Assembly (NCBI GenBank): GCA_900318995.1
Contig: ONMR01000017.1
Span: 1-38,386, forward strand
From: an uncultured Prevotellaceae bacterium
GTDB lineage: Bacteria; Bacteroidota; Bacteroidia; Bacteroidales; Bacteroidaceae
Reading direction: 5' to 3'
Length of the DNA stretch: 38,386 bases
Below, piece by piece: positions 11,714-30,928 of the stretch. The translations under genes and the position numbers were made by a program. The number at the start of each line of letters is the position of its first letter. Position 1 is the stretch's first letter. A model generated the notes under the pieces. That model was not told the DNA's origin. It saw only the letters and a list, made by a program, of their open reading frames with translations, and ran no database searches.

Positions 11714-11745
11714 CATAAAATCCGCTGTTTTTCTCCTCTCCCCCA

Positions 11746-11876
11746 CACCTTAGGGAACTGTAACGCACGTAGAGCCATTTCCTTCCCTAAGGTGAATCGG
11801 AAATACGCCAGAACCTGCGTTACCCCACACCTTAGGGAAGCAAAACGCAGGTACGGCCTATTCTCTCCCTAAGGTG
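11746..11876. repeat. Hairpin repeat array A (two CACCTTAGGGA units)
   Basis: Two 49-nt units at 11746-11794 and 11828-11876 each begin CACCTTAGGGA and end with its exact complement TCCCTAAGGTG, enclosing 27 nt. The linker is 33 nt, so the period is 82. The linker contains ACCTGCGTT and the second unit contains AACGCAGGT, which can pair in an alternative hairpin. The array matches the first two units of the array at 13914-14128 with only a few differences. It fills most of the 236-nt gap between the GNAT and DUF3795 genes. Confidence 0.85.
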
Positions 11877-11885
11877 AGTTGAAAC

Positions 11886-11914
11886 GACGCAAAACTAAAC
11901 AACCCCTTTGCGTC
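11886..11914 (-). terminator. Inverted repeat after the DUF3795 gene
   Basis: GACGCAAA (11886-11893) pairs with TTTGCGTC (11907-11914) around 13 nt. On the minus strand it begins 9 nt after the DUF3795 stop. There is no clear U-tract, so its terminator role is uncertain. Confidence 0.4.
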
Positions 11915-13677: not shown

Positions 13678-13703
13678 GTGCACCAAAGTGTCCATTTGCA
13701 GGA

Positions 13704-13896
13704 GCAGGACTATAGGGGTTGGGGACCATCAGCGGAGGGCGTAAGCGGAGAGCCCACGGAAGATCCCGTTAAGAACGCCGCTTGTTTGAGGAACGTTCGG
13801 CCCCGAAGGGGACGATGAGGACGAGTTCGGCGTTTAGGGTCTGGAGGGGCTCGTAGTAGCCCGGAGCTGTTGTGTCCCCAACCCCTATAGTCCTGC
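13704..13896 (+). ncRNA. Structured 193-nt element, copy 1 (unnamed; candidate RNA)
   Basis: Perfect 23-bp terminal arms at 13704-13726 and 13874-13896 close a GC-rich core. The core holds ACGCCG (13775-13780) pairing with CGGCGT (13828-13833), AGA/CCC (13761-13767) pairing with GGGTCT (13837-13842), CCCC-GAA-GGGG (13801-13811) and GGGCT/AGCCC (13847-13862). The inverted copy at 30671-30863 has the same length and core, and it differs by paired substitutions that preserve each helix. No reading frame is conserved. The plus strand is preferred as the sense strand because the conserved internal mismatch reads G-A on it. The element lies after a terminator and upstream of leuS. Whether it is transcribed is unknown; a palindromic repeat element active as single-stranded DNA is the alternative. 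Confidence 0.55.
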
Positions 13897-13913
13897 GGAG
13901 CATCCTACCCCCA

Positions 13914-14128
13914 CACCTTAGGGAACTGTAACGCACGTAGAGCCATTTCCTTCCCTAAGGTGAATCGGAAATTCGCCATAACCTGCGTTACCCCCACACC
14001 TTAGGGAAGCAGAACGCAGGTACGGCCTATTCTCTCCCTAAGGTGAGCAGGAAAAACGCCAGAACCTGCGTTACCCCCTCACCTTAGGGAAGCAGAACGC
14101 AGGTACGGCCTATTTTCTCCCTAAGGTG
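13914..14128. repeat. Hairpin repeat array B (three CACCTTAGGGA units)
   Basis: Three 49-nt units start at 13914, 13997 and 14080, an exact 83-nt period with 34-nt linkers. Each unit starts CACCTTAGGGA and ends TCCCTAAGGTG (11-bp perfect inverted repeat). Units 2 and 3 are nearly identical, while unit 1 has a different 27-nt interior that it shares with the first unit of array A at 11746. Linkers carry ACCTGCGTTACCCCC, whose start can pair with AACGCAGGT in the following unit. The array begins 17 nt after the structured element and ends shortly before the leuS promoter. Confidence 0.85.
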
Positions 14129-14140
14129 AGCAGGAATGAG

Positions 14141-14156
14141 AAACACTATAGTGTTT
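14141..14156. promoter_or_regulatory. 16-bp perfect palindrome upstream of leuS
   Basis: AAACACTATAGTGTTT is fully self-complementary and lies 15 nt upstream of the leuS -7 box, about where the -33 region would be. A dimeric repressor or activator could bind it. No family can be assigned. Confidence 0.45.
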
Positions 14157-14171
14157 TTGCCTGAAAATATG

Positions 14172-24824: not shown

Positions 24825-24956
24825 GTAAAAATTGAGTATATAGTCTCAAGAACCGTCGCCACCCTCGGCGCGTCAGAGGGAGGGGCCCGCCACGTAGTGG
24901 TGGGAGGGATAGGCCCGAAGGGCCGTAGTTCTGGAGACTATATACTCAATTTTTAC
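24825..24956. ncRNA. Long-arm structured element of a second type (unnamed; possible bidirectional terminator or RNA)
   Basis: Perfect 23-bp arms at 24825-24847 and 24934-24956 enclose an 86-nt GC-rich core. The stem continues past an A-G mismatch with AGAAC/GTTCT (24849-24853 and 24928-24932). Inside are GGCCC-GAA-GGGCC (24912-24924) and an 8-bp hairpin CCCGCCAC-GTA-GTGGTGGG (24886-24904). The design resembles the 193-nt elements (long perfect arms, a C-GAA-G hairpin), but the core sequence is different. It lies between the convergent ends of the polyprenyl synthase and deoC genes and stops 5 nt from the deoC stop, so it may terminate both. The arms are AT-rich and contrast with the core. 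Confidence 0.5.
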
Positions 24957-30608: not shown

Positions 30609-30625
30609 CTGCAAATTCTTGGAAT

Positions 30626-30912
30626 GGATGATAATAGGAATGCTTCTCTTTGTTTTGTTTTGAAAGCACCGCCGGACTCAGGTTTTGGGGACGCAACGTT
30701 CCGAGGCTACTTCGCCTCCCCTCCGGACCCTAAACGGCGAACTCGTCCTTTTAGTCCCCTATGGGGCCTAACGTTCCTCGAACAAACGCCGTTCTTAACG
30801 GGATCCTCCGGGGGGGCTACGCTTACGCCTCTGCACTGATGGTCCCCAAAACCTGAGTCCGGCTTCTGCAACTGGGAAGTTGCTGCAAAGAGAACCATCC
30901 CTATTATCATCC
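30626..30912. repeat. Outer inverted repeat framing structured element copy 2
   Basis: The 27-nt segment at 30626-30652 and the complement of 30886-30912 match at 25 of 27 positions. They enclose the inner 193-nt element with spacers of 18 and 22 nt; the right spacer holds a small hairpin GCAACT-GGGA-AGTTGC (30868-30883). The outer arms have no counterpart around copy 1 and may be a palindromic site into which the element came, or an extended stem. The whole block fills the divergent promoter region between mnmG and the GNAT gene. Confidence 0.75.
30671..30863 (-). ncRNA. Structured 193-nt element, copy 2 (inverted; candidate RNA)
   Basis: Perfect 22-bp arms at 30671-30692 and 30842-30863 close a core homologous to that of 13704-13896, read on the minus strand. 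Paired differences keep the helices. The helix ACGCCG/CGGCGT in copy 1 is ACGGCG/CGCCGT here (30733-30739 with 30787-30793). GGGCT/AGCCC becomes GAGGC/GCCTC (30703-30707 and 30714-30718). The CCCC hairpin (30751-30771) has A-T where copy 1 has C-G, and AGA/TCT becomes GGA/TCC. Its sense strand points towards mnmG, as copy 1 points towards leuS. No protein is encoded. Confidence 0.55.
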
Positions 30913-30928
30913 TTTGGTGCTTTTATAG

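Follow-up and report, generated by a model that had tools for sequence, protein, structure and literature searches.

A dispersed intergenic hairpin element with a conserved fold in Bacteroidales

Two copies in the window and their relatives in the genus

The window, by which we mean the whole stretch of 38,386 nucleotides analysed here, contains two copies of a structured element whose neighbours are confirmed as leuS and mnmG. A first-pass annotation had placed two 193-nt copies at 13704–13896 and, inverted, at 30671–30863, and reading the sequence bears this out together with the helix differences it had described: the arms differ between the copies, ACGCCG/CGGCGT in one stands against ACGGCG/CGCCGT in the other, and AGA/TCT against GGA/TCC. 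A repeat search of the window matched the copies to each other as a 112-nt pair of 86% complementarity, and folding against shuffles gave z of -8.2 and -8.7 for the two, with 0 of 200 shuffles folding as well. The covariance model R1 draws the unit slightly wider than 193 nt, at 13695–13901 for copy 1 (sense strand plus, 211 bits) and at 30666–30872 for copy 2 (sense strand minus, 227.5 bits).

One strand of the element folds back on itself as a long, irregular hairpin whose internal loops are conserved. In copy 1, the 5' arm (13704–13726, plus strand) and the 3' arm (13874–13896, plus) make a perfect inverted repeat of 23 bp (100% complementary). Between them lie the block GATCCCGTTAAGAACG (13762–13777, plus), which supplies the 5' strand of an internal loop and of its helices and is invariant or nearly so in 16 of 16 columns among the 17 copies of alignment A1; the block GTTTAGGGTC (13832–13841, plus), on the 3' side of the same internal-loop region and invariant in those 17 copies; and an apical domain, UUGUUUGAGGAACGUU..hairpin..GAGGACGAGUUC (13782–13829, plus), which by eye is the part best retained in distant relatives. 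Copy 2, read on the minus strand, has its 5' arm at 30842–30863 and its 3' arm at 30671–30692, which sequence and fold give as a perfect 22-bp pair. It is further enclosed by an outer palindrome (left arm 30623–30652, right arm 30886–30915, 90% complementary), which is present in congeners too. We considered and rejected the idea that such outer arms always belong to the element: an inverted 8-mer lies outside only 36 of 111 copies, against 11.5 for cross pairs.

The window holds other repeats. At 11740–11908 and 13908–14160 there are repeats of 82–83 nt spacing with CACCTTAGGG/CCCTAAGGTG hairpins, and such hairpin repeats also occupy the leuS site of two congeners, G006 and G012, in which the element studied here is absent from that site. 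Another family of structured repeats, GGGAGGGGCCCG..hairpin..GGGAGGGATAG, is represented at 24825–24956 inside 29-bp arms; its relatives occur at the studied element's sites in other species, sometimes within the same outer arms, and up to E 5 just two Rfam matches were returned for this repeat, neither of which reached gathering score.

The two 193-nt copies are confirmed as members of a dispersed family, which is represented about 20 times in their own genome (2.5 Mb), and the further homologs for which the first-pass annotation had called appeared in searches of both this genome and the genus. Within the own genome, blastn returned 24 matches, three of which are the query locus itself and its pair of arms, and R1 gave 23 at E<=1, 19 of these scoring above 100 bits. 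The model was built, as was the RNAalifold consensus, on A1, an alignment of 17 full copies in which 59 pairs are predicted and both sides are changed in 31. A first search of relatives with R1 found 28 positive genomes among 61, all of them in the own genus (28/37, against 0/24 genomes from other families). Copy number among congeners runs from 0 to at least 39, the maximum being that of G007, where 39 is the number of candidates scored and hence a lower bound. Among the best 80 of 107 loci found with a core pattern, records are titled Bacteroidales, Bacteroidaceae or Prevotellaceae, and the animal, where a title names one, is always a ruminant; it is from these titles that we take the order to be Bacteroidales.

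The genus copies were studied as two sets, 145 from 120 fetched stretches of relatives and 152 from 21 genomes including the mnmG and leuS sites. Some copies carry additional features. At L103, L106, L141 and L405 the element's 3' end (about 40 nt including the arm) is present as tandem copies, and at L405 the 5' end is tandemly copied as well; a similar insert with CTTTTGCGTAGCAAAATAAAA interrupts the copy near its 3' loop at L025, L027 and L353; and near-identical copies with near-identical printed flanks occur in the three species G015, G016 and G013 (L160, L161, L162), a likeness that reflects either gene transfer or cross-assembly.

Copies are intergenic, with ORFs as proxies for genes, although in 27 of 145 an accepted ORF overlaps the element; the family is dispersed, non-coding and multi-copy in the manner of a MITE. 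Its orientation to flanking ORFs is without preference (++ 41, +- 35, -- 32, -+ 25; p 0.26 against equal proportions, ORFs standing in for genes and 12 of the 145 copies having no ORF on one side). This bears on the link to translation genes that the first-pass annotation had noted, as perhaps due to chance, for the two window copies; each has its sense strand upstream of its gene, leuS or mnmG, as a cis-regulatory leader would. The element does stand upstream of mnmG at 10 of 30 loci in the genus, the own genome included. However, in three of these ten genomes (G008, G022, G025) it is inverted, so that no fixed orientation to the downstream gene exists, and elsewhere it is absent or a remnant, being core-deleted in G029, G012 and G015; moreover, ten neighbours of distant copies are genes of other kinds. 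Since the 145 copies show no preferred orientation, the association with translation genes is best put down to chance, and we regard a leader function as highly improbable.

Fold, strand polarity and the histories of arms and cores

Is it the fold of the element, rather than its sequence, that is retained? Covariation had been proposed from the two copies alone, and it proved significant in a larger alignment under a tree-based null. For this, 130 non-redundant copies were aligned with MAFFT without structure, a tree was made with FastTree and 20 substitution-shuffled nulls were drawn. At E<0.05, 22 of 20,301 column pairs covary, all of them on the nested diagonals of the hairpin. Twenty of the 22 are canonical, 43-167 extending an RNAalifold helix by one pair, and the two non-canonical ones lie between paired columns (93-129, G-A/A-C; 105-117, A-G/G-A). 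The null does not include the exchange of blocks between copies, which should lift pairs off the stem as well, and none of those passed. The fold is thus conserved while the sequence changes.

The core of the hairpin is polar to the sense strand (plus at 13704), as follows from G-U prevailing at core pairs and being commoner there than A-C. Among the 130 copies, G-U is found at 69-144 in 124, at 78-140 in 109 and at 92-130 in 90, and at the remaining core pairs G-U outnumbers A-C by about 84 to 30 when the overlapping 52-158, 53-157 and 62-151 are left aside (157 to 34 with overlapping candidate pairs counted). One further pair is G-U in 105 of 105 A3 copies, and this pair varies in distant copies (GU 19, AU 14, GC 7, UA 2). 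The arms gave no significant asymmetry on the sequence-only alignment (G-U 40 vs A-C 27, p 0.14; by site 17 vs 14). An arm strand signal of 58 vs 15 was discarded, because it came from alignments fitted to the covariance model, which are biased that way, and it was not significant on the sequence-only alignment. Because conserved G-U and non-canonical purine pairs that change together are features of the core, we lean towards RNA rather than single-stranded DNA as the form in which the strand would fold.

How do copies come to differ so strongly in their arms? Canonical arm pairing is 0.96 within a copy and 0.68 between copies, and the median arm identity between copies is 0.64–0.73; terminal inverted repeats common to all copies, as in a MITE, are therefore not found in the set, because the arms differ from copy to copy. 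When copies are grouped by the likeness of their flanks, 117 of the 152 are assigned to 29 site groups common to species (one shared flank sufficing for a group), from which it follows that recent movement within the genus has been modest. Core identity hardly depends on place, the medians being 0.80 for the same site, 0.78 for the same genome and 0.77 for neither. Eleven pairs at different sites combine a core identity of at least 0.93 with an arm identity below 0.72 (in the extreme, core 0.96 and arm 0.36), and nine pairs at the same site show the reverse, with arm at least 0.88 and core below 0.82, both counts being of non-independent pairs with members in common. At leuS, G000 and G022 have an arm identity of 1.00 and a core identity of 0.65, only the leuS side of the site being common to them. 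Judged by eye from the printed alignments, the switch points on the two sides of the hairpin are about equally deep.

Remnants from which the core is deleted retain their arms, and the sites themselves have varied contents. At the leuS site (30 loci, upstream sequence read in 28), the element is present in G000, G015, G022 and G007 and, with an insert, in G008; it is truncated in G026 and G016, and only arms are left in G020 and G021. At four further sites, compared in 20 stretches, relatives variously lack a hairpin, retain arms with the core deleted, carry the element or have palindromic repeats of other families at the same place, sometimes within the same outer arms.

Arms thus tend to stay with their site while cores are replaced inside them, and we infer that recombination between copies lies behind this replacement, the two sides of a helix changing together as a result of selection for pairing after such recombination. 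The original interpretation of the compensatory changes as selection on a fold holds in that covariation is significant; it needs amending in that arms are tied to their site while blocks of core pass between copies, so that part of the compensatory change is the replacement of hairpin blocks between copies. Alternatively, the palindromes might be maintained by template switching at the DNA level (quasipalindrome correction) with no selection on the fold at all. Arms that are near-perfect yet different between copies, the lack of significant strand asymmetry in them and the other palindromic repeats at the same sites in relatives would all suit such a process. It would not, however, be expected to conserve internal loops and specific G-U and non-canonical pairs in the core, to confine significant covariation to the hairpin diagonals or to keep the fold across families, and we consider it improbable as an account of the whole element.

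The element across the order

Applied to the order, R1 found the element in 9 of 393 genomes, with at least two copies in five of the eight other than the own. By eye, many distant copies retain the loops GGCGUUAAGCG/GGAGUAGCC and GUUAA(A/G)AA and the apical UGUYUGASG..GAGUU, while their helices are different. A widened model, R2, was built from 32 copies including distant ones; it matched 21 of 393 genomes, which represent 18 genera and 14 families, with at least two matches in 14 of the 21 (six being scored at most), and 12 of the 21 had contributed no sequence to it. In A7, an alignment of 46 distant copies that is fitted to the model and hence biased toward pairing, 87.7% of cells pair, against 53.6% when shuffled and at most 44% when slid, and 56 of 59 pairs show double changes. 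A class-wide search gave 8 positive genomes among 395, only three of them outside the order (E 7e-5 to 1.2e-4) and one of these three with overlapping hits on both strands; the matches outside the order are unproven.

Distant genomes also contain copies that are closely alike at different places. G141 has five that are 88–96% identical at different intergenic positions, and in G363, a single contig, two copies whose flanks differ are identical along 144 nt, which we read, from the sequences, as probable recent multiplication. In G321, four of five matches lie at contig starts. Of 58 distant copies, 39 end on the right in a terminal hairpin of at least 10 pairs; such a hairpin occurs in 1 of 53 stretches taken at a distance of 400 nt and in 1 of 58 shuffled sequences. 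At L425, L446, L459–L462 and L464 the loop of this end hairpin can pair with preceding sequence, for example TTGATC with GATCAA. Such pairing is visible in G141 and G325; over all 50 distant copies with a hairpin it is weak (mean run 5.6 vs 5.0).

Plasmid and phage records gave no match to the window copy or to two distant copies (for the second distant copy, plasmids only were searched), and the exact core pattern occurs 0 times in IMG/VR. The apical pattern was found on 12 viral contigs, five of which have R2 matches below E 1e-7. Four viral contigs (L480, L481, L482 and L489) have the apical CTGTTTGAGCGNAGCGAGTT motif with the strands of the internal loop in swapped order, and R2 does not match them. 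These four carry AAAGTGCGGT, which we take to be an uptake motif and which gives them a Haemophilus-like look. A similarity search with one of these contigs returned five records, three of them Salmonella, of which two are annotated at nrdG, and none was seen to hold the element. One contig, L489, has a match to sRNA-Xcc1 (RF02221, 70.1 bits) at 555–640, away from the motif.

Retention of the fold across the order, and sites common to many species at which the fold is kept though the arms change, would also be conceivable for a host multi-copy structured non-coding RNA that is kept for a function at each site. Such an RNA would hardly be expected to range from 0 to at least 39 copies among congeners, to suffer internal deletions or to occur as identical copies at different sites, and inspection of the left flanks by eye revealed no promoter-like motif, which speaks against a self-transcribed RNA. 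We therefore think this explanation quite unlikely. The left flanks do have a common TTTYCCA before TTTGCAG, with no spaced second box visible.

Relation to known elements and a possible mode of spread

The first-pass annotation had not recognised the element as a known RNA, and no Rfam family matches it. With Rfam 15, the window has no match at gathering score, and around copy 1 none of the 12 matches with E up to 10 attains its gathering score. Nor does a gathering-score match fall on the element at 20 loci from the genus or at 16 that are distant or viral. Bacteroidales-1, Bacteroides-1, Flavo-1 and 6S-flavo appear among the Rfam Bacteroidetes motifs in PMC2864571; they are likewise candidate structured RNAs from the same phylum, but none of them reaches gathering score in the window or in those 20 genus and 16 distant or viral loci. 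Our literature search, most subscription journals lying outside its coverage, found no name for such an element.

By description rather than by sequence, the element appears to work like the intergenic stem-loop repeats ERIC and YPAL. These are described as multi-copy intergenic stem-loops (ERIC 127 nt, YPAL about 168 nt), and it is reported that ERIC in Yersiniae acts on neighbouring genes via RNA hairpins (PMC2267715). The element too is a single long stem-loop, present in many copies of intergenic DNA, but its arms are specific to the site and not family-wide, its loops are retained in many families of an order and its cores are exchanged inside the arms. It also resembles REP/REPIN sequences associated with RAYT in being a hairpin dispersed between genes. 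REPs are about 20–40 nt, and we take the G(T/G)AG-like tetranucleotide before the stem of the element to be a feature in common with them; in contrast to that system, the presence of a Y1 transposase does not follow that of the element, although the own genome contains a single match. With MITEs it shares its shortness, lack of coding capacity, dispersal and inverted arms, but the arms vary by copy, there is no target duplication and no partner transposase was found. That the palindromes might belong to a known IS or MITE had been named as a point against a new family; the element is indeed a dispersed, MITE-like repeat, whereas its palindromes are not accounted for by shared ends, since the sequence of the arms varies from copy to copy.

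How might such an element move? Target-site duplications were not found among 111 copies, where direct repeats show no consistent excess (the best of about 5,900 offset tests was 8 vs 1.6 for a 3-mer). Among 37 genomes of the genus, Y1_Tnp occurs in 23 (one match in the own genome) and RVT_1 in seven (two matches in the own genome), so that a partner acting in trans is possible in the own genome. No reverse transcriptase gene lies beside the element as in a retron, the own-genome RVT_1 matches being over 70 kb from the nearest copies on the same contigs, and no transposase domain was found in the ten neighbour ORFs of distant copies. We considered, and provisionally set aside, an element driven by Y1 or reverse transcriptase: both families are present in the own genome, but they do not track the element through the genus, and G007, with its at least 39 copies and 97% completeness, has neither. 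Because most genus genomes are incomplete, the absence of a partner is weak evidence.

These observations bear on the alternative that the element acts as a hairpin of single-stranded DNA used by a recombinase, as IS200/IS605-type elements or integron attC sites are. The lack of target-site duplication and of arm conservation, orientation without preference, the absence of a visible promoter-like motif and the Y1_Tnp match in the own genome are all compatible with it, as are the terminal hairpins of distant copies (39/58, with 1/53 and 1/58 in the controls); the polarity of the core to one strand fits as well. However, the Y1 family does not follow the element through the genus, and the conserved G-U pairs, like the purine-purine pairs that covary, are more suggestive of RNA. 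We regard this alternative as rather unlikely.

Multi-copy dispersal, a conserved fold, a polar core, shared sites and separate histories of core and arm are, in our opinion, somewhat better explained than not by a dispersed, non-autonomous, MITE-like element of about 205 nt that is free of protein-coding sequence and is recognised via the fold of one strand. That it is mobile is suggested by alike copies at different sites. We envision a scenario whereby a trans-acting factor, from the host or from a mobile element, recognises the folded single strand and copies spread through this recognition, while resident copies would swap cores by homologous recombination and survive only where pairing is kept. 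A bolder version of this scenario, which we put forward as a doubtful speculation, is that the family represents an order-wide class of protein-free selfish RNAs, in which a host factor would move or copy a conserved three-dimensional RNA core into the tips of site-armed hairpins.

A fold that is found in 14 families of one order, often in multiple copies, and that has no Rfam entry provides a rich comparative data set, which bears on the putative function as RNA or single-stranded DNA. The separate histories of arms and cores amount to a natural experiment on the evolution of structured repeats, and they carry the warning that covariation in repeats can arise from block exchange. If cores were indeed placed into hairpin tips, then selection would act on a fold assembled from exchangeable concentric layers.
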